From: a virus
DNA: 64,000 bases
IMG/VR virus record: IMGVR_UViG_3300012930_000002
Location: 1 to 64,000 of that record
Strand: one strand, 5' to 3'
In this document: positions 1,556 through 41,895 of the stretch, in pieces
How the letters are laid out: each line of letters opens with the position of its first letter
How positions within the stretch are numbered: the first letter of the stretch is position 1
The notes under the pieces: model-generated
Database searches by the model: none
Told to the model about the DNA's origin: nothing
What the model saw: only the letters and a program-made list of their open reading frames with translations
Position numbers and translations under genes: made by a program

Positions 1556-2184
1556 ACTTGTCCTGTGAAATCAGTAAACGGCGTGCCGCTGAAGTCGCCG
1601 CTACCACCGCCTGCCAGCAGATTCTTCAAAAACTGGCTTAGCGCAAATCCACTGCCACCAATGATGTTGCCTAACTGCGACGGCCCCGTTGCTGAGCCTG
1701 TGCCCGTCTCCGTTGTATTGACCGTTCGCGGTGTCAGAAACTGATGACTTAACCCAAGCGTTGATAAGAACCGCTGCATCGCTTCCTGTCGCAGTCCCGC
1801 CTCACCCGCTTGAATCTGATTACTCCGCGCAATGTCCAGCCCCTTGAATCCTGCCCCAAGTTTACCGCTGTTGCCAAAGCCGCGTGACACCAGCGATGAC
1901 TCCAGCCGTGGCGCAATCGCATTATAGGTCTGGTTTGTCTGCGTGCGCATCAGGTTACGATCGCTCTGCATCACGTTCGGTCCCTGGCTAATCAGATCCA
2001 TTAACGTGTTCAGGTCTAATTTCTCAAGACGATGCTGGCGTGGAGTAAGAATGCCTTCCGTGCTGCCCGAGCGTGAGAAATCACTGGTACTTGTGCGGCC
2101 TGATTTGCTGTTTTGAAGCAGCCCGCCACCAATGCTAGTAGCAGCCCCGATAATTGCAGGAAGAAATGGAACAATCATTGGCAT
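1552..2184 (-). CDS. Putative virion protein with Gly/Ala-rich N-terminus, 210 aa
   Basis: The family is not recognised. Residues 1-25 are hydrophobic and Gly-rich (FLPAIIGAATSIGGGLL), which could be a membrane-active segment. The middle has a helical region rich in Gln, Arg and Leu, and the tail is Gly/Ser/Thr-rich. Short virion proteins with such an N-terminus next to longer Gln-rich proteins are common in podovirus ejection clusters. An ejection role is inferred from this context only. Confidence 0.65.
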   Translation of the reverse strand: MPMIVPFLPAIIGAATSIGGGLLQNSKSGRTSTSDFSRSGSTEGILTPRQHRLEKLDLNTLMDLISQGPNVMQSDRNLMRTQTNQTYNAIAPRLESSLVSRGFGNSGKLGAGFKGLDIARSNQIQAGEAGLRQEAMQRFLSTLGLSHQFLTPRTVNTTETGTGSATGPSQLGNIIGGSGFALSQFLKNLLAGGGSGDFSGTPFTDFTGQV

Positions 2185-2189
2185 AGTCT

Positions 2190-2741
2190 TTACTCCATCT
2201 TTAGTGACTCTCGATACAGACCATAAACCACCATGTCGATAGGCTTGCCGTCGCGCATGACTTGTGCGCTGAGTGTGCCTTCTACGCGTCCTCCAAGGCG
2301 GCTAATTAAGCCTTTAATCGCATGATTATCACTGAACACCCACATCTCAATCTTCAGAACCTTGTCATCAAACAACTCCTGACAGATCTGCTTACCCGCC
2401 GCGCCGGTTGTAGCGTCTCCTCTAAACGATTTCTTAAACACGCAATGCAGTTGGGCAATCCACCGTCTTTGTGGAAATCGAATAGCAGAAACAAATCCCC
2501 CCAGTTCATCGCCCCGCCAGATTCCCCACGTTTTAACGGATGAATCGTCTGTTATTCCAATCTCGAATTCAACGAAGCCTTCCCGGTCCTTTGGCGTGTC
2601 GTCACTAGCGATTAGTTTCCATACCGGTAAACTCCAGTCATAGAGCTGAAAGTACGCATGTGCAGGAAAGGGCGAGCGCACACTTAGCGAGCCAAGACCC
2701 GTCACCCATCGCTCCTGTCGTGAGACTGCTTGACTGCTCAT
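2190..2741 (-). CDS. GNAT-like acetyltransferase-fold protein
   Basis: 183 residues. The C-terminal half (about 90-178) has the strand-helix-strand pattern of a GNAT fold: a hydrophobic strand (WIAQLHCVF), a Gly-containing loop before a helix (GDATTGAAGKQICQELF), a strand (LKIEMWVF), then SDNHAIKGLISRLGG, the usual 'N-x-A-x-x-(L)-x-x-x-x-G' acetyl-CoA-side pattern. Phages often carry such a protein among tail genes, but its substrate is unknown. The start overlaps the stop of the GroES-like gene by four bases. Confidence 0.65.
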   Translation of the reverse strand: MSSQAVSRQERWVTGLGSLSVRSPFPAHAYFQLYDWSLPVWKLIASDDTPKDREGFVEFEIGITDDSSVKTWGIWRGDELGGFVSAIRFPQRRWIAQLHCVFKKSFRGDATTGAAGKQICQELFDDKVLKIEMWVFSDNHAIKGLISRLGGRVEGTLSAQVMRDGKPIDMVVYGLYRESLKME

Positions 2742-3022
2742 AATTCAATCACCGCAATGATATCCTGCTCCCGACACGTCCACTTTTCCTCGCCGTTCAA
2801 CTCGATTGCCTTAGCATCGTGTTTGCCAATAAGCACACGATCTCCGGCTTTCACGTCAAGCGGCTGCAAGCGGCCTCGCTTATCATACTCGCCCTTACCA
2901 GCGTACTCGACAATGTACTCTTGTGACAGCCTCACTGCTTGATCAGGTGCGAAGATAGAGCCGTAGCGCCGGGGTAGATTGAGACGCCGTGCGATTATTT
3001 TGTCGCCAATAACTTCTATCAC
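2738..3022 (-). CDS. GroES-like co-chaperonin
   Basis: 94 residues, the normal length of GroES/Cpn10. The C-terminal half matches the GroES pattern closely: VKAGDRVLIGKHDAKAIEL, then a short loop, then EEKWTCREQDIIAVIEL, corresponding to the 'V-GD-VLFGKY' and 'REDDILAVIE' segments of GroES. The start is GTG at 3022, overlapping the upstream stop. The mobile-loop region (about 18-40) differs from the bacterial one, as is usual in phage homologues such as T4 gp31. It probably caps host GroEL to fold a capsid or tail protein. Confidence 0.85.
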   Translation of the reverse strand: MIEVIGDKIIARRLNLPRRYGSIFAPDQAVRLSQEYIVEYAGKGEYDKRGRLQPLDVKAGDRVLIGKHDAKAIELNGEEKWTCREQDIIAVIEL

Positions 3023-3183
3023 TTACCTTTTACCTTACGGAGATTTGGATTCGCCTTCTTTGCTGTCGGTGACGCCTTCCGTGTCGAGTTAGCGAGAATG
3101 GCTCCAGCGTTCTTCATCGGGATACCTTCTCTTGCTGCGATTTTAGCTTGTACAGCTTGAAAGCCCGGATGCTTCTTTGCCAT
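3019..3183 (-). CDS. Small basic phage protein, 54 aa
   Basis: Starts with ATG at 3183 and stops inside the GTG start of the GroES-like gene. It begins MAKKHPGFQAVQAKIAAREG and ends in a Lys-rich tail. The pattern 'HPGFQAVQAKIA-(R/K)-(E/Q)G-(I/V)-AGAILA-(N/A)-TR-ASP-AKK-NP-L-KV' recurs in many phage and prophage small proteins of unknown function. The basic charge suggests nucleic-acid contact, but this is unproven. Confidence 0.75.
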   Translation of the reverse strand: MAKKHPGFQAVQAKIAAREGIPMKNAGAILANSTRKASPTAKKANPNLRKVKGK

Positions 3184-3206
3184 TGATCAATCTCCTTTTG
3201 TATAGA

Positions 3207-4379
3207 TTATGCCTTACCCGGCGCAAAAGTAAGTAGTAGCGCGACACCGTGAGTAGCGGCACCGCGGTGCTCCTCGCTAGTGGCTATTGCAAAGTGAAAA
3301 GTATTTTCGCCGACCTCTGGACATGGAACGGCACAATAAGAAGTTTCTATGGAAGTGTTACCAACACCAAAAAAACCGCCACCGCTGCCACCGCCCCATT
3401 CGAGAATCCCCGGAGTCGGATCAGGATCGGGCGCTATGCCGCTTGTGCTAGCTATAGCAGTGGTTGTCCCTACGAAGAGCTGGATATAAGCATATGGCCC
3501 ATTCGCGTCAACCGTTAAAGGCGGAACATGAATGCCATCAGGAAATACGAATGCCTCAAAGTTCAAGTGTTGGATTATTGGAGTCGGGCCACCTGTAGGC
3601 ACTCTGGAAATCAGATCAACCTGTGCCATTTGTATAGTAGTAACCCAGAGAGTAGGTGGATTATCTCTATCCCCAAGAGGAACAAAGGGTATAGTAAACG
3701 TCCAGTTTGTCTCTGTACCATCTGCAACTTTTGTCAACCAAGTAAAATCACTTAGCTTTCCCTGAAACGTCCATCCTGGTGAGCTAACTGCTGGCGAGCC
3801 AAATCCATCTAGTCGCGTAATACAAAAAGCTACCATCAAAGTATTAGGTGGAGGAGGCACGGAATTGCGGGTCGTATAAGTAAAACGTTCTTCGTCGCTT
3901 CCGCCGGCGGCACCGCTATCATTACCAACCATCTCAATGATACTGGGACAATCCACTGGAACACAAGGCTGACAAGGACGGCGATCTAGCATCACGTCTA
4001 AACACTCATCAAACATCTTCTCAAACCAGAAGCAGTCCTTCTCGTGCTTACGCCAGTATTCAAGAGTAATAGGCTCGCTGTCCTGTGTAGGCTGGCTGCT
4101 GAATCCAATGCCGCGCCCGCCTTGCAGATCGAGGGCCGGGCCAGCTGAATGCGAACTTGAAGCCTTTGGCTGCTTGGCGATAGTGACCGTACCATGATGT
4201 CCGGCTTGCGCCTCAATGCGAGTATTGAGCACGGCCAAATGTTGATTAATCTCTCGCACCAGCCGCGTACCGAGCCCCGGATTGCCCGCACTCTCACCAA
4301 GCGTGTTAAGATCGTCAACTATCGCTCCGCCAATGCGCCCTATACCTCGCCGGGTATTTGCGGTCTTCTTTCTAGCCAT
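3207..4379 (-). CDS. Fibre-like virion protein with duplicated N-terminal module, 390 aa
   Basis: Residues 1-130 are clearly homologous to the whole of the neighbouring 126-residue protein: both share RRGIG near the start, AGHHGTVTIA, GPALDLQGG, GFSSQP and SEPITLEYWRKHEKDC. Residues 150-390 are beta-rich, Pro/Gly/Thr-rich and typical of a fibre or spike, with a distinct 'CQPCVPVDCP' cysteine cluster at the junction. The shared module is likely a virion-attachment domain and the extra part a receptor-binding or decoration domain (inference). The start overlaps the end of the paralogue by eight bases. Confidence 0.75.
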   Translation of the reverse strand: MARKKTANTRRGIGRIGGAIVDDLNTLGESAGNPGLGTRLVREINQHLAVLNTRIEAQAGHHGTVTIAKQPKASSSHSAGPALDLQGGRGIGFSSQPTQDSEPITLEYWRKHEKDCFWFEKMFDECLDVMLDRRPCQPCVPVDCPSIIEMVGNDSGAAGGSDEERFTYTTRNSVPPPPNTLMVAFCITRLDGFGSPAVSSPGWTFQGKLSDFTWLTKVADGTETNWTFTIPFVPLGDRDNPPTLWVTTIQMAQVDLISRVPTGGPTPIIQHLNFEAFVFPDGIHVPPLTVDANGPYAYIQLFVGTTTAIASTSGIAPDPDPTPGILEWGGGSGGGFFGVGNTSIETSYCAVPCPEVGENTFHFAIATSEEHRGAATHGVALLLTFAPGKA

Positions 4380-4752
4380 TCAGCTCTATACACTCGTCAA
4401 ACATACGCTCAAACCATTGGCAGTCTTTTTCGTGTTTACGCCAATACTCAAGGGTGATAGGTTCGCTACCGTCACGCGGTTGACTACTAAATCCTACGGC
4501 ACTGCCGCCCTGTAAATCGAGCGCTGGACCAACCGTCTTCTTTTGCGTAGCAATCGTCACCGTGCCGTGATGTCCCGCCCGTGCTTCAACACGACTATTG
4601 AGCGCTGCCAGATGCCGGTTAATCTCGCTAACTAACCGAGTCCCGATGTCAGGCATGCCGATATCCTTGCCAGCAGCATTCAACTCTTCCGCAATAGCGC
4701 TACTGACCTGTCCGATCCCGCGCCGGAGATTCGCTGGTTGTCTTTTTGCCAT
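4372..4752 (-). CDS. Short paralogue of the adjacent fibre N-terminal module, 126 aa
   Basis: Aligns from its first residue with residues 1-130 of the downstream 390-residue protein (MAKRQPANLRRGIG against MARKKTANTRRGIG). This fixes the start at 4752 even though it overlaps the previous gene by 53 bases. It stops right after the EYWRKHEKDCQWFERMFDEC motif and lacks the beta-rich C-terminal domain. Either a tandem duplicate that lost its tail or a free assembly module. Confidence 0.75.
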   Translation of the reverse strand: MAKRQPANLRRGIGQVSSAIAEELNAAGKDIGMPDIGTRLVSEINRHLAALNSRVEARAGHHGTVTIATQKKTVGPALDLQGGSAVGFSSQPRDGSEPITLEYWRKHEKDCQWFERMFDECIELNG

Positions 4753-36903: not shown

Positions 36904-37158
36904 GTGGCAAAATCACAGAACCAAACACCAGCGCTATTCGATCTAGGTGAACCAGCAGCCATGACAGCACCCGCAATAGTCACTGTCGATCCTGGCGCAC
37001 TGACGCGATTGCTAACCGAGTACGCCGAGGGCAAGGAGCGGCGGCGCGAGGTGGCGATGGAGTTATGGGCGCACCCTGAAAGTCCGCTGTTTGATGAACT
37101 GATGCGGGCGTTGGAGGCAGCAGAGGCACATGGACAATGGAAGAAAGAACACTTTTAA
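36904..37158 (+). CDS. Hypothetical protein, 84 aa
   Basis: GTG start three bases after the Nudix stop, with AGAGAGG before it. N-terminal part is Ala/Pro-rich; C-terminus is helical (VAMELWAHPESPLFDELMRA). It overlaps the methyltransferase start by 22 bases. Unknown. Confidence 0.5.
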   Translation: MAKSQNQTPALFDLGEPAAMTAPAIVTVDPGALTRLLTEYAEGKERRREVAMELWAHPESPLFDELMRALEAAEAHGQWKKEHF

Positions 37159-37901
37159 CCTTTGGCTCATTGTTCGCAGGTATCGGCGGCTTTGATTTAG
37201 GTCTTGAACGTGCTGGAATGAAATGCAAATGGCAAGTTGAGATTGATGATTATGCATCGAAAGTCCTCGCGAAACACTGGCCCAATGTTACCCGATTTCG
37301 AGACGTGCGGGAGTGTGGAAGGCATAACCTTGCCAACGTTGATCTCATCTGCGGAGGGTTTCCGTGTCAAGACATCAGCAATGCAGGAAAACGAGCGGGA
37401 ATTGACGGAGAGCGCAGCGGATTATGGTCGGAGTACGCAAGAATCATTCGCGAGTTACGACCCCAATACGTGCTCGTGGAAAACGTCGCAGCTTTGCTTG
37501 GGCGGGGAATGGGCAGAGTTCTCGGAGACTTGGCCGCGTGCGGGTATGATGCAGAGTGGGACATGTTACCCGCTTGTGCCTTTGGTGCCAAACATATCCG
37601 TGAAAGACTTTGGATATTATCCTACCCCTACGAAAAGCGACCACAAAGGCGCATCTTCGGGATGTGGAAAGATCAAGAACGAAGAACTTTCGATGCTTCG
37701 TTATTATCTATTCAGCTTGGAGCCAATCATTGGGACGCTTTACCCTCATCCAGAGTTTGTCGAGTGGCTAATGGGATTCCCAATAGGGCACACAGAACTA
37801 TGACGGTTGGGAATAGTATCGTCCCCCAAATCGCAGAATGGATCGGACGAAGAATCATAGCCGCAGAGGAGCATGGAGCATGGAAAGCACGGAACTTTTA
37901 G
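37137..37901 (+). CDS. DNA cytosine-5 methyltransferase, compact
   Basis: 254 residues, short for the family (usually 330 or more) because the target-recognition part is small. Motif I FGSLFAGIGGFDLGLERAG, motif IV GGFPCQDIS with the catalytic Cys, motif VI LVENVAALL, motif VIII-like HIRERLWILSY, and motif IX/X NRAHRTMTVGNSIVPQIAEW. All catalytic motifs are present, so it should be active. A second 188-codon frame lies entirely inside it. It probably protects phage DNA from host restriction. Confidence 0.9.
   Translation: MEERTLLTFGSLFAGIGGFDLGLERAGMKCKWQVEIDDYASKVLAKHWPNVTRFRDVRECGRHNLANVDLICGGFPCQDISNAGKRAGIDGERSGLWSEYARIIRELRPQYVLVENVAALLGRGMGRVLGDLAACGYDAEWDMLPACAFGAKHIRERLWILSYPYEKRPQRRIFGMWKDQERRTFDASLLSIQLGANHWDALPSSRVCRVANGIPNRAHRTMTVGNSIVPQIAEWIGRRIIAAEEHGAWKARNF
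37237..37803 (+). CDS. Overprinted frame inside the C5 methyltransferase gene, 188 aa
   Basis: The +1 frame stays open from a TTG at 37237 (ATGs at 37246, 37252 and 37381) to TGA at 37803. Its product holds ESFASYDPNTCSWKTSQLCL, WAEFSETWPRAGMMQSGTC, FGYYPTPTKSDHKG and EFVEWLMGFPIGHTEL. From memory these motifs mark a recurrent, usually unnamed phage protein family often found near methyltransferases. They lie exactly over methyltransferase motifs VI to IX. No convincing ribosome binding site was found, so expression is uncertain. Confidence 0.5.
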   Translation: MRLMIMHRKSSRNTGPMLPDFETCGSVEGITLPTLISSAEGFRVKTSAMQENERELTESAADYGRSTQESFASYDPNTCSWKTSQLCLGGEWAEFSETWPRAGMMQSGTCYPLVPLVPNISVKDFGYYPTPTKSDHKGASSGCGKIKNEELSMLRYYLFSLEPIIGTLYPHPEFVEWLMGFPIGHTEL

Positions 37902-40156
37902 GTGAGCGGGATTATACTGATTTTCTAGCGAGCAAGCGACTGGTTGCGCCCGCTACTGGCATTGAGATCGACCGCGCCGATTTGCACCCTGCCATGTTTC
38001 CCTTTCAGGCGGACGTAACAACTTGGGCGCTACGTAAGGGCCGTGCGGCAATGTTTCTAGATTGCGTCGCGGGATCATCGCGAATACTGACATCGCAAGG
38101 CTACCAACCTATTCAAGAGCGGAATCGGCAATGGACAGAAATTTATTCGCTGTCACCAACAGGTCCGGTTGTTACTCCTGCTTTTATCTTTAAGAAGGGC
38201 AATGCGGGCCTATTACGTATTCGCACTCAAGGCGGCAGAACTATTGAGATCGCTTCACGGCATCTATTCTTAACGTCTTCCGGCTGGCTTTTGGCTTCCG
38301 AGATCGAGGTCGGCGTATCGCTTGCAGTATCCGACGCCGACCGTCTTCTGTCCATTTTGGAATCCGGCCAGTTAGTTCAGCACGAAGATGATCGCCATTG
38401 GTCGGATACAATTCAAGATTGTCAGGCTCGTTACACTGTTTCCCCTTCGCAGTGTTCTTATGGTGAACCACCTCTTCGGGGCGCAAGTATCGCCCAATTA
38501 CCATTTCTATCACAAGTCGGTGTTCAAGAACTCGCCCCGCTTTTGAGGCAAATGGATGTTCGGGACAATAAATTGAAACGTACCCATCCGCGTCTAAGTA
38601 TCGGCCGCCTTTCCATGCGGGATTATGTGACCCCGGCAAGCTATGCTGAGAGTGACGCGGGATATTGTTCCTTTTCATCGTTTGCCAAATGGTATTCTTT
38701 GAATAGCCAAGAACTATTCCGACCTGCTTCATCCGATAGCCCTGAGCAGTCAATTCCCGAATTTTCTCAATCTCATCAAGTTGAAGATTATATAAGCGAG
38801 GTCGTCCAGTTTTCATGCTTAGAAGTATACCATGATCCTATAGTCAGTGTCGAGAAAGTAGATGCGGCGGACTATTATGATATGTACGTACCCGGCTATC
38901 ACAATTACCTTGCAGAAGGTATGTGGCATCATAATACAGGTCTTGGCAAATCGTTCTGTCAAATTGAATGGGCGCGCATCCTCAATAACCAGGGTTACTG
39001 CGTGTTGATAGTAGCCCCTCTCGCTGTCGCTAAACAAACTGTGCGCGAGGCTGCGAAGTGGGGTACGGCAATCGAGTATGTGCGAGAGCCGGCAGCAATC
39101 AGCGGCACAACTGAAACGATCATCACCAACTATGAACACGTGCAGAAGTTCGATATGCGGCAGTTTGGCGGCGTGGTACTGGACGAATCAAGCATCCTCA
39201 AGTCGCAAGACGGTAAGACACGTACACGGTTGATTGAAATGTGCCGCGAGATACCTTTCCGCCTATGCTGCACGGCCACCCCTGCACCAAACGACATTAG
39301 CGAGATTGCCAACCATGCTGAGTTCTTAGGATTGATGTCCCGCACTGAAATGCTCGCCCATTTCTTCGTTCACGGTGACACCGGCTGGCGACTGAAAGGT
39401 CACGCTAGCGAACCGTTCTATCGCTGGCTGGCGTCCTGGGGGATGTCAGTGAAGAAGCCGAGCGACCTGGGCTACGAGGACGGTGCATTCATCTTGCCAC
39501 CGCTTACCATCACTCCGCACTTTGTTCAAACCGACTGGAAGCCGGACGGGATGCTATTCAGCGTCAAGTTACGTGGCATCGGCGAACGGTCACAAGCACG
39601 GAAGGCGACACTGCTACCACGTGTTGCGAAAACAGTTGAGATTGTTGAAGCGGAGCCGAACCAACGTTGGCTGATCTTTTGTGACACGAACGATGAATCG
39701 ACGGCATTGAAAAAAGCACTGGATGCAGTCGAGGTCAAGGGCAGCGATACGCTAGATCACAAAGAACGGTCACTGCTTGGATTTGCCAACGGTGACATTC
39801 CGCGACTTGTAAGCAAGACCTCAATTGCGGGCTTTGGTTTGAATCTCCAAGTCTGCTCCCGCGTCCTTTACTGCGGCCTCAGCGACAGTGAGGAAAAGTT
39901 CTATCAAGGCACCCGGCGAGTCTGGCGATTTGGCCAGCCTGATCCCGTTACCGCGCATATCGTGCTGAGCGATGCCGAGTATCCGATCTACGAGAACGTG
40001 ATGAGGAAAGAAGCGAAGGCAGCAGAGATGTCAGCTAACCTGATTCAGAATGTCGCTGCATATGAACGCACCGAGATCAGTTCGCATCTTGGCAGCTTTA
40101 ACTATGCGGACGATCAGGAAATAAAGCTTCCATCTTGGCTTAATGGTGGTGTATAA
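37880..40156 (+). CDS. SNF2/DEAD-like helicase interrupted by an intein
   Basis: 758 residues from the ATG at 37880 (AGAGGAG nine bases before). The first 61 residues include AMFPFQADVTTWALRKGRAA. The P-loop reads FLD | TGLGKSFCQ, split by 291 intein residues. After it come VLIVAPLAVAKQTVREAAKW, motif II VVLDESSILKS, motif III CTATPAPND, and C-terminal SIAGFGLNLQVC with VWRFGQPDPVTAHI, the SNF2 motif VI region. After splicing the protein has about 467 residues. Similar helicases next to methyltransferases are found in phages; the task may be DNA translocation during modification or recombination. Confidence 0.85.
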   Translation: MESTELLGERDYTDFLASKRLVAPATGIEIDRADLHPAMFPFQADVTTWALRKGRAAMFLDCVAGSSRILTSQGYQPIQERNRQWTEIYSLSPTGPVVTPAFIFKKGNAGLLRIRTQGGRTIEIASRHLFLTSSGWLLASEIEVGVSLAVSDADRLLSILESGQLVQHEDDRHWSDTIQDCQARYTVSPSQCSYGEPPLRGASIAQLPFLSQVGVQELAPLLRQMDVRDNKLKRTHPRLSIGRLSMRDYVTPASYAESDAGYCSFSSFAKWYSLNSQELFRPASSDSPEQSIPEFSQSHQVEDYISEVVQFSCLEVYHDPIVSVEKVDAADYYDMYVPGYHNYLAEGMWHHNTGLGKSFCQIEWARILNNQGYCVLIVAPLAVAKQTVREAAKWGTAIEYVREPAAISGTTETIITNYEHVQKFDMRQFGGVVLDESSILKSQDGKTRTRLIEMCREIPFRLCCTATPAPNDISEIANHAEFLGLMSRTEMLAHFFVHGDTGWRLKGHASEPFYRWLASWGMSVKKPSDLGYEDGAFILPPLTITPHFVQTDWKPDGMLFSVKLRGIGERSQARKATLLPRVAKTVEIVEAEPNQRWLIFCDTNDESTALKKALDAVEVKGSDTLDHKERSLLGFANGDIPRLVSKTSIAGFGLNLQVCSRVLYCGLSDSEEKFYQGTRRVWRFGQPDPVTAHIVLSDAEYPIYENVMRKEAKAAEMSANLIQNVAAYERTEISSHLGSFNYADDQEIKLPSWLNGGV
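38241..38816 (-). CDS. HNH homing endonuclease encoded antisense to the intein
   Basis: 191 residues. N-terminal HTH (EIEKIRELTAQGYRMKQVG, then LGYSKNTIWQTMKR), a linker with HNPAWKGGRYLDADGYVSI, and an HNH_3-type core: EHRLVIEMVIGRYLRPEEVV, HHKNTAKGKQCNEPDNLEL, then YPTNGDHLRAEL. Basic C-terminus. The gene lies wholly within the intein coding region on the other strand, and the two reading frames are both open. It has its own promoter-like sequence. It would cut intein-free helicase alleles. Confidence 0.85.
   Translation of the reverse strand: MKTGRPRLYNLQLDEIEKIRELTAQGYRMKQVGIVLGYSKNTIWQTMKRNNIPRHSQHSLPGSHNPAWKGGRYLDADGYVSIYCPEHPFASKAGRVLEHRLVIEMVIGRYLRPEEVVHHKNTAKGKQCNEPDNLELYPTNGDHLRAELTGRIPKWTEDGRRRILQAIRRPRSRKPKASRKTLRIDAVKRSQ
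38824..38853 (-). promoter_or_regulatory. Leaderless promoter for the antisense endonuclease
   Basis: On the minus strand TCGACA (38853-38848), 18-base spacer, TATACT (38829-38824). The ATG at 38816 starts seven bases after the -10 box, so the transcript would be leaderless; no Shine-Dalgarno sequence is seen. It lies inside the C-terminal splicing domain of the intein. Confidence 0.6.
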
Positions 40157-40157
40157 T
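40152..40157 (+). promoter_or_regulatory. -10 box of a probable leaderless HNH promoter
   Basis: A perfect TATAAT formed by the last codons of the helicase gene. The GTG at 40164 lies at the expected start point. The -35 region is poor (TTCCAT at 40128-40133), so strength depends on context. Confidence 0.5.
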
Positions 40158-40163
40158 GGTGGC

Positions 40164-40949
40164 GTGAAGATTCCGTTGCCGGTACGTCAAAAAGTCAAGT
40201 GTGCGATCTGTGACAGAACTCTTAGTCGGGTTATTTGGAACTACCCAAAGAATCGGCCTATCGCCTTTTTCTTTTGTAACAACAGCTGCAAGGGGCAATG
40301 GCAAAGAGAACAGCGGGAGGCATTAGGATTTACGCGAGAATGGCTGATAGAGCAGTATATTGTTCTTAAAAAGACGGCTAATGATATTGCTACTGAGATC
40401 GGTCGTGATCCTAAGCGCGTTTGGGAATGGATCAGGGATTATAAAATTGCGACTCGCCCACGTGGAACCGCAACTCATCTGAAAGGCGGCGTGCCGTTTG
40501 GACGTGGCAACATTGGCCGGAAGCATTCACCTGAAATGAAAGCAAAGCTACGAGCTATCGCATTAGCTGACGGTCGCGTTCCTTATGATCCAAAAGTCGG
40601 ACCTCCGTTCAAAGGAAAACGTGGAGCCGAAACACCAAACTGGAAAGGCGGTGTTACGCCAGAGCGACAGGCTTTTTATTCATCGCCTGAATGGGCAAAA
40701 GCGATCAAGGCAGTCTGGCATCGAGCGGATGCAAAATGCGAGCGATGCGGATTAGATCATCGGACGATTGATCGAACAAAGAAACGGTTTCATGTTCATC
40801 ATATCGTTAGCTTTCAAATACGCGAGCTGCGGGCGGTAGTAAGCAATCTCGCATTACTCTGTGATACCTGTCATCGATGGGTACATAGCAAAAGGAATAA
40901 GAACCATGAGTTCATCCGCGAAAGTAATGGCGCAGGCACAGGGCTCTAA
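40164..40949 (+). CDS. HNH endonuclease with zinc finger and HTH
   Basis: 261 residues from the GTG at 40164. An N-terminal zinc ribbon (KCAICDRTLSRVIWNY, FFFCNNSCKGQW) is followed by an HTH (ANDIATEIGRDPKRVWEWIR), a GRKHSPEMKAKLRAIA segment like the NUMOD3 DNA-binding motif, and the HNH core KCERCGLDHRT, FHVHHIVSFQIRE, LALLCDTCHRWVHS. The modular build is typical of homing nucleases. Lies between the helicase and methyltransferase genes and overlaps the latter by 44 bases. Confidence 0.85.
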   Translation: MKIPLPVRQKVKCAICDRTLSRVIWNYPKNRPIAFFFCNNSCKGQWQREQREALGFTREWLIEQYIVLKKTANDIATEIGRDPKRVWEWIRDYKIATRPRGTATHLKGGVPFGRGNIGRKHSPEMKAKLRAIALADGRVPYDPKVGPPFKGKRGAETPNWKGGVTPERQAFYSSPEWAKAIKAVWHRADAKCERCGLDHRTIDRTKKRFHVHHIVSFQIRELRAVVSNLALLCDTCHRWVHSKRNKNHEFIRESNGAGTGL

Positions 40950-41895
40950 TTGGGCTTTATATAATGGGGATTCTGCCGAGATTATGAAAGGGCTTCCTTC
41001 CGAGTCTGTTGACTTAAGCCTGTTCTCTCCGCCTTTTGGCGCATTATTTGTGTATTCCAATACCGAACGTGATCTAGGTAACAGCAAAAACGCGGATGAG
41101 TTCTTTACCCACTTCGCCTACATTACCAGTGAAATTTATCGCGTGATGAAACCGGGACGGAATGTCTGTGTACACGTCGCGCAGTTGCCATTGACTAAAC
41201 AGACAGATGGCGTCATCGGCATCAAGGACTTTCGCGGTGATGTAATCCGGCACTTTGTCGCGCAGAATTTTATCTTTCACGGCGAAGTTTGTATAGACAA
41301 AGATCCGCAAGCCCAGGCAATTCGCACGCACAATAAGGGGTTGTTATTCGTGCAGCTCAAGAAGGACTCAAGCTGGTTGCGACCCGCGTTCGCTGACTAC
41401 GTGCTAGTGTTTCGCAAGCCTGGAGAGAACGCCGTAGCGATCCATCCTAATATCAGTAACGACGACTGGATCAAGTGGGCACATCCGCTTTGGCAAATTG
41501 AAACGACTGACGAGGACCGAGCGCTATTCGATAGCTCCGAGCTGTTCGACCTTGCGCCGGGCACTCCGCTAATCTGGTACGGCATTCGCGAGAGTGACAC
41601 GCTGCAAGGCATGCGTGAGGCTCGTGATGAGAAGGACGGCAAGCATATTTGTCCGTTGCAGCTTGGTACGATAGAGCGATGTGTTAGGTTGTGGAGTAAT
41701 CCAGGCGAGCTAGTGTTCTCGCCCTTTGCAGGCATCGGCAGCGAGCCGTATCAAGCGGTCAAGTTTGGCCGGCGCGGATTAGGTATTGAACTGAAGCCAC
41801 AGTATTACTCTGTCGCCGTCAAAAACCTCCAGCAAGCCGAGCGTGAGGCGATGTCAGGATCGCTGTTTGGGCTGATGGAAGCTGCCGCGCCGTAG
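40906..41895 (+). CDS. DNA N4/N6-type methyltransferase
   Basis: 329 residues from the ATG at 40906 (AAGGA upstream); a GTG and ATG further up lie inside the HNH gene. Motif IV is VDLSLFSPPFGALFVYS, and motif I near the C-terminus is GELVFSPFAGIGSEPYQAVK followed by RRGLGIELKPQY. Motif IV before motif I indicates the beta class of amino-methyltransferases. SPPF suggests N4-cytosine or N6-adenine methylation. Together with the helicase it may form a modification pair. Confidence 0.85.
   Translation: MSSSAKVMAQAQGSNWALYNGDSAEIMKGLPSESVDLSLFSPPFGALFVYSNTERDLGNSKNADEFFTHFAYITSEIYRVMKPGRNVCVHVAQLPLTKQTDGVIGIKDFRGDVIRHFVAQNFIFHGEVCIDKDPQAQAIRTHNKGLLFVQLKKDSSWLRPAFADYVLVFRKPGENAVAIHPNISNDDWIKWAHPLWQIETTDEDRALFDSSELFDLAPGTPLIWYGIRESDTLQGMREARDEKDGKHICPLQLGTIERCVRLWSNPGELVFSPFAGIGSEPYQAVKFGRRGLGIELKPQYYSVAVKNLQQAEREAMSGSLFGLMEAAAP

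Follow-up and report, generated by a model that had tools for sequence, protein, structure and literature searches.

A phage helicase gene is interrupted in its P-loop by a predicted intein, and the strand opposite this intein carries a gene for an HTH+HNH endonuclease. Both strands of the overlap are under selection: the HNH protein is under purifying selection, and the sense frame is held open.

We consider it highly probable that this is a mobile protein-splicing element whose homing endonuclease gene lies antisense in the slot, a loop of the HINT domain, where other inteins hold an in-frame one, with splicing, antisense expression, target and cleavage as we infer them here. The helicase precursor would be translated through the intein, and the two halves of the splicing domain would fold with about 150 residues of disordered, unselected linker between them. 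Cys1, the block B His67, His290-Asn291 and the +1 Thr would excise the intein and restore the P-loop FLD-TGLGKS. A minus-strand transcript beginning within the C-terminal splicing region would yield the HTH-HNH nuclease, which would cut or nick intein-free helicase genes at their P-loop codons; recombinational repair would then copy the element in and destroy the target. More tentatively, such elements may form an old class, abundant among environmental phages, whose strand arrangement has a function of its own. The gene's own promoter inside the C-terminal splicing region could time homing apart from the host protein, and transcription of the antisense strand might also adjust how strongly an essential host gene is expressed.

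The helicase intein and its antisense gene

The window, by which we mean the whole stretch of 64,000 nt that was analysed, is part of a 71.8-kb virus record. Its ORF at 37838-40156 (+), 772 aa, encodes an SF2/SNF2-type phage helicase whose Walker A motif is interrupted (...AMFLD^C...HHN^TGLGKS...) by an insert of 291 aa at 38063-38935 (+), running from Cys1 at 38063-38065 to the HHN end at 38935 and followed by a +1 Thr (ACA) (Table 1). The initial annotation had described an intein that splits the helicase P-loop and has both N- and C-terminal splicing blocks. That description holds, positions included: the insert matches Pfam Intein_splicing (1.5e-12) and NCBIfam intein_Nterm (TIGR01445), both over the cut-off, and a sequence-profile comparison relates it to DnaB inteins at 5e-23. 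C1, H67, Y282, H290 and N291 are invariant in 31 inteins taken one per cluster from the family described below. The window's block B motif reads ASRH, not TxxH, with the invariant His67; five loci (L066, L069, L075, L079, L080) have Lys-Asn in place of His-Asn before SGKT.

An AlphaFold model of the window intein is of high confidence over residues 1-92 and 255-291, with a pLDDT of about 40 in the middle. A Foldseek search with the HINT halves retrieved the mini-inteins 4o1r (Npu DnaB) and 2in0 (Mtu RecA) at TM(target) 0.87-0.88. By every feature open to testing (Cys1, block B His, His-Asn, +1 Thr, modelled HINT fold) the insert is a class 1 intein, from which we infer splicing. The initial annotation had also held that its middle contains no endonuclease in frame, and had named an in-frame domain beforehand as the outcome that would speak against it. 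Searches of the sense product against Pfam, NCBIfam and PHROGs recognised no endonuclease family, and its middle is predicted to be disordered. The insert is not an endonuclease-bearing intein in the accepted sense, the endonuclease being out of frame and antisense.

Table 1. Positions of the helicase, intein and antisense features in the window
Feature	Coordinates	Strand	Evidence
N-extein of the SF2/SNF2-type helicase, ending ...AMFLD	37838..38062	+	ORF; Helicase_C and SNF2-rel_dom (Pfam, on the whole ORF)
Intein N-terminal splicing region: Cys1, block B, His67 at 38261-38263; predicted HINT fold, residues 1-92	38063..38338	+	TIGR01445, 2e-7; C1 and H67 invariant; pLDDT about 90
Intein sense middle, residues 93-254; open frame without a domain, largely disordered by prediction; opposite the HNH gene	38339..38824	+	pLDDT about 40 over 100-250; pN/pS 2.16 in the overlap core
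Intein C-terminal splicing region: Asp273, Tyr282, His290, Asn291	38825..38935	+	Profile, conservation, structure model
C-extein from T-GLGKS (second half of Walker A), helicase motor domains, stop codon	38936..40156	+	Pfam; phrog_62 DNA helicase, 4.9e-54 (PHROG profiles)
HTH+HNH endonuclease gene, 191 aa; ATG at 38816, TAG at 38241-38243	38241..38816	-	Pfam HNH_3, 8e-6 (25.8 bits, cut-off 24.8); Pfam HTH_38, weak; PHROG HNH endonuclease phrog_10730, 1.3e-28; pLDDT 88
Promoter-like site, extended -10, TCGACA-18-TGgTATACT; ends about 7 nt before the ATG	38824..38853	-	Consensus match only, not evidence of function

The minus strand had been said to encode a complete HTH-plus-HNH nuclease within the middle of the intein. 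The gene and its coordinates stand, on the HNH_3, weak HTH_38 and PHROG matches; its confinement to the non-splicing middle does not, as it spans intein codons 60-252 and overlaps block B, including His67. In 33 sequences of the HNH protein, H119, N129, N133, N140 and H143 are invariant. The protein is modelled with good confidence. A Foldseek search of the model against the PDB gave nothing at E<=0.001 and returned mostly HTH proteins, so the HNH assignment rests on sequence profiles.

The surroundings hold further genes of related kinds. Directly 3' of the helicase, on the sense strand, lies another HNH gene that looks unrelated to the first and matches an HTH domain weakly (40143-40949 (+); PF01844, 1.8e-8). 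The helicase/HNH cluster is flanked by C5-cytosine and N6/N4 DNA methyltransferase genes (37137-37901 and 40861-41895 (+)).

Distribution, empty sites and loss of the HNH block

A search of viral contigs with the window intein protein found no relative, and the nuclease proved the better probe. Searching with the HNH protein, GenBank phages included, gave 83 loci besides the window where an ORF possesses both intein ends and the HNH gene runs antisense within it. Once the window is added, the set contains 65 different intein DNA sequences, which fall into 31 HNH clusters. Most hosts are terminases, namely large subunits of several families. SNF2 helicases are hosts in the window, L037 and L108, and a clamp loader in L048 (3837-4736 (-), P-loop GPSG^CGKTT, where the +1 residue is Cys); two further P-loop hosts (L001, L052) were left without a class. 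Nearly all insertion points lie inside the P-loop, mostly right before [ST]GK[ST]. Nine loci are in cultured phages: seven Pectobacterium phages, Dickeya phage Setonix and Pseudoalteromonas phage PHS3. Among the annotated Pectobacterium phage records, those examined leave out the antisense gene. The GenBank record of PHS3 (L026, KX912252.1) shows only a C-terminal piece of the terminase, together with an opposite-strand HNH gene; the open frame is actually continuous and forms one intein-bearing terminase. A terminase with an antisense-HNH intein was also seen in the Enterobacter cloacae chromosome NZ_CP056117.1 (L115), presumably in a prophage.

A second survey used a profile of the C-terminal splicing block plus P-loop instead of the HNH protein. 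It recovered 80 inteins, of which 69 have the antisense HNH in the same phase; this proportion describes the clade and not all inteins, the probe being derived from HNH-bearing inteins. The others are ten mini-inteins of 131-145 aa with no HNH detected and one intein (L355) with an in-frame LAGLIDADG-like sequence by inspection. Counted among the 69 is a short intein with an HNH remnant (L282); L323 also retains a remnant of the block. Overall there are about 102 distinct antisense-HNH intein proteins, as an upper estimate.

Close terminase relatives were empty exactly between GGNR and SGK in 74 of 79 cases; in the other five the intein is present, its frame open and the HNH motif antisense to it. 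One occupied and one empty terminase locus (L064 and L124) are 98.9% identical over 1600 nt of flank, and the identity is still about 98% when some 1.7 kb on the upstream side and 2.5 kb on the downstream side are compared. Four of the six bases touching the junction differ, as would be expected from a recent conversion tract, precise loss being the alternative. Empty cultured relatives also exist for the Pectobacterium terminase. Near-identical terminase genes thus differ by presence or absence at one exact site. The window's own helicase locus differs in this respect: of 80 helicase relatives, 77 were readable and all 77 were empty. No close intein-bearing relative of this locus was found, so direct support for recent mobility is confined to terminase relatives.

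Loss of the HNH block could be followed at shared sites. L303 (301 aa) and L298 (131 aa) occupy the same site and differ by a single gap of about 510 nt; throughout the same-site pairs with and without the block (L303/L298, L321 and L293/L319) there is one gap, of about 490-510 nt. The mini-inteins without the block retain all splicing blocks. They are scattered in a tree of the splicing domains, a quick tree with many open forks in which well-supported branches force at least five changes. Distances between splicing domains correlate with those between HNH proteins (Mantel r 0.50, 0/2000), and this correlation and the scatter are consistent with invasion, decay and loss. The element has been gained or lost recently, and the HNH block has been lost repeatedly.

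These data bear on a different reading, which treats the antisense HNH as a selfish gene in its own right that settled in a mini-intein as a safe site and is expressed there without driving intein homing. The persistence of mini-inteins that lack the HNH gene, and the existence of the free-standing relatives L038 and L039, are in its favor. Together with L018, these free-standing genes nest within the window's HNH subclade; HNH genes have therefore also moved independently of inteins, by exchange between free and nested forms. Yet a strict hitchhiker should occupy many more contexts and orientations than the constant slot and phase seen in 69 of 80 related P-loop inteins, and it would not account for the correlated distances or for exact empty sites being common. 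We regard this reading as improbable.

We find it more improbable still that the HNH protein is active but serves the phage and not homing, for instance as a terminase-adjacent packaging nuclease or in the exclusion of competitors. HNH proteins are known packaging partners, HK97 gp74 being an example, and the predominance of terminases among the hosts is in keeping with such a role. However, the window host is a helicase and that of L048 a clamp loader, and most terminase relatives lack the element, so that it is not needed for packaging.

Two-strand selection and expression signals

The initial annotation had noted that both strands are open over 576 bases, with base 3 of the intein codons facing base 2 of the nuclease codons. 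Both statements proved right: across these 576 nt, antisense codon positions 1, 2 and 3 face sense positions 1, 3 and 2, and every member of the family has this same phase. When synonymous HNH codons of the window were permuted, a mean of 6.6 stops appeared in the sense frame, which stayed open in 0 of 2000 permutations. Permutation within each of 31 representatives gave an expectation of 190.5 sense stops, and 0 were observed; the loci had been chosen for an ORF spanning both intein ends, and among strong HNH matches only the free-standing L038 and L039 are without such an ORF.

Selection was counted in 18 disjoint, independent close pairs of equal length. Differences at sense codon positions 1/2/3 numbered 86/57/220 in the N flank, 145/440/157 in the overlap and 45/33/125 in the C flank (chi-square p 1e-47 and 1e-32). 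In the flanks, changes concentrate on sense position 3; in the overlap, they concentrate on sense position 2, the base that serves as wobble for the antisense codons. Pooled pN/pS is 0.16 for the HNH protein and 0.19 for the splicing flanks; the value of 2.16 for the sense frame of the overlap reflects the geometry of the overlap and not positive selection. The antisense frame is conserved across homologues, contrary to the other refuting outcome that the initial annotation had named, a broken or unconserved antisense frame; this is seen both in the pN/pS of the 18 pairs and in its presence in most related P-loop inteins found by the C-terminal splicing block. Descent of the sense middle from a decayed in-frame endonuclease was considered and is ruled out by the codon-position counts, the pN/pS values and the single-gap pairs with and without the block.

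The same counts make it hardly credible that the sense middle is itself functional, as a cryptic endonuclease or a regulator, with the HNH gene secondary. Such a middle would indeed be part of the translated precursor and is kept free of stops. Against this, its sense pN/pS, its differences on sense position 2, its low pLDDT and its lack of any family match all point the other way, mini-inteins without the block keep every splicing block, and the codon-position test largely refutes the idea. A coincidental overlap, in which one of the two frames is no gene, can be dismissed: in this phase an antisense wobble change can often avoid a sense stop, but the permutation test, recurrence in 31 clusters, the conserved HNH and splicing residues and the Shine-Dalgarno sequences refute it.

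In 13 of 31 clusters the first HNH start has such a Shine-Dalgarno sequence, of at least 5 nt, in front of it, compared with 9 of 608 antisense ATGs in exteins; at 6 nt or more the counts are 9 of 31 and 0 of 608. At the window HNH start, no Shine-Dalgarno sequence was found. The promoter-like site there scores above shuffles of the same stretch (P<0.005), and it ends about 7 nt before the ATG, so that the window gene is possibly translated from a leaderless mRNA. Only 7 of the 31 clusters have promoter-like signals that score above shuffles of their own sequence (P<0.05), although enrichment had looked strong against extein controls; this enrichment is no more than suggestive.

Significance and relation to known systems

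In about a hundred distinct inteins, spread over several host genes, selection acts at once on two unrelated proteins encoded by opposite strands of the same DNA. The antisense wobble falls on sense position 2, which makes the family a natural test case for the evolution of antisense overlapping genes. The tolerance of an intein for some 150 residues of arbitrary loop sequence is of interest for protein engineering. An intein scored as endonuclease-free may have an endonuclease encoded opposite to it, and both strands should therefore be inspected when intein mobility is surveyed. The cultured phages, Pectobacterium phage Taid and its relatives and Pseudoalteromonas phage PHS3, make the system testable.

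The initial annotation knew of no intein of antisense design. A full-text search of the open-access literature likewise found no description of an antisense endonuclease gene in an intein; it found antisense homing endonuclease genes only in introns, and an out-of-frame HNH gene on the same strand only in a non-intein insert. The latter are the ShiLan domain and the Pacc40 insert in phage DNA methylases, with a same-strand HNH in a shifted frame and no splicing blocks, judged not to be inteins by their authors (Arsenault, Gosselin, Gogarten 2025, PMC11855218). They share with the window insert an HNH gene hidden in an insert that is open in the host frame. The window insert is not of the ShiLan type, having its HNH antisense and all splicing blocks. 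Phage Bipolar (L031, ShiLan type) and a huge-phage DNA methyltransferase (L029) have a frame-shifted HNH gene on the sense strand and were excluded from our family. In L029 (LR756508.1, methyltransferase at 2061-4415 (+)), we observed that the HNH gene at 2434-3321 (+) overlaps an insert, CITPDTEIL...FVTGN^S, that looks intein-like by eye and is not recognised by Pfam or NCBIfam. It is possible that this locus is a bridge between ShiLan-type inserts and antisense-HNH inteins.

A homing gene antisense to its host element, as in the window intein, is described for group I introns in nuclear rDNA (PMC9548176). Such an RNA intron differs in being free of the need for an open frame on the host strand. 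The window insert itself is not a group I intron, an Rfam search of 37700-39300 having given nothing up to E=1. The phage HNH homing endonuclease I-HmuI (PDB 1u3e), which is intron-encoded in sense, resembles the window protein in its HNH core (weak profile match, E 0.008), but the domain order differs, as the HTH precedes the HNH in the window protein.

Fractured genes with split inteins, reportedly described by Dassa et al. in 2009, are said to have separate endonuclease genes intervening between the two parts of the host gene. The separate endonuclease gene tied to an intein is common to both systems, whereas the window host gene is continuous through the antisense gene. To our knowledge, endonuclease-bearing inteins have splicing and endonuclease domains on one polypeptide. 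An in-frame HNH_3 intein is found, for example, in the dCTP deaminase of cyanophage CL131 (PMC6293099). The window intein is like those with in-frame LAGLIDADG or HNH_3 domains in its HINT domain, its insertion at a conserved active site such as a P-loop, the position of the endonuclease between the splicing halves, and its exact empty sites. It is unlike them in that its endonuclease is a separate gene on the complementary strand and its sense product is without an endonuclease domain.
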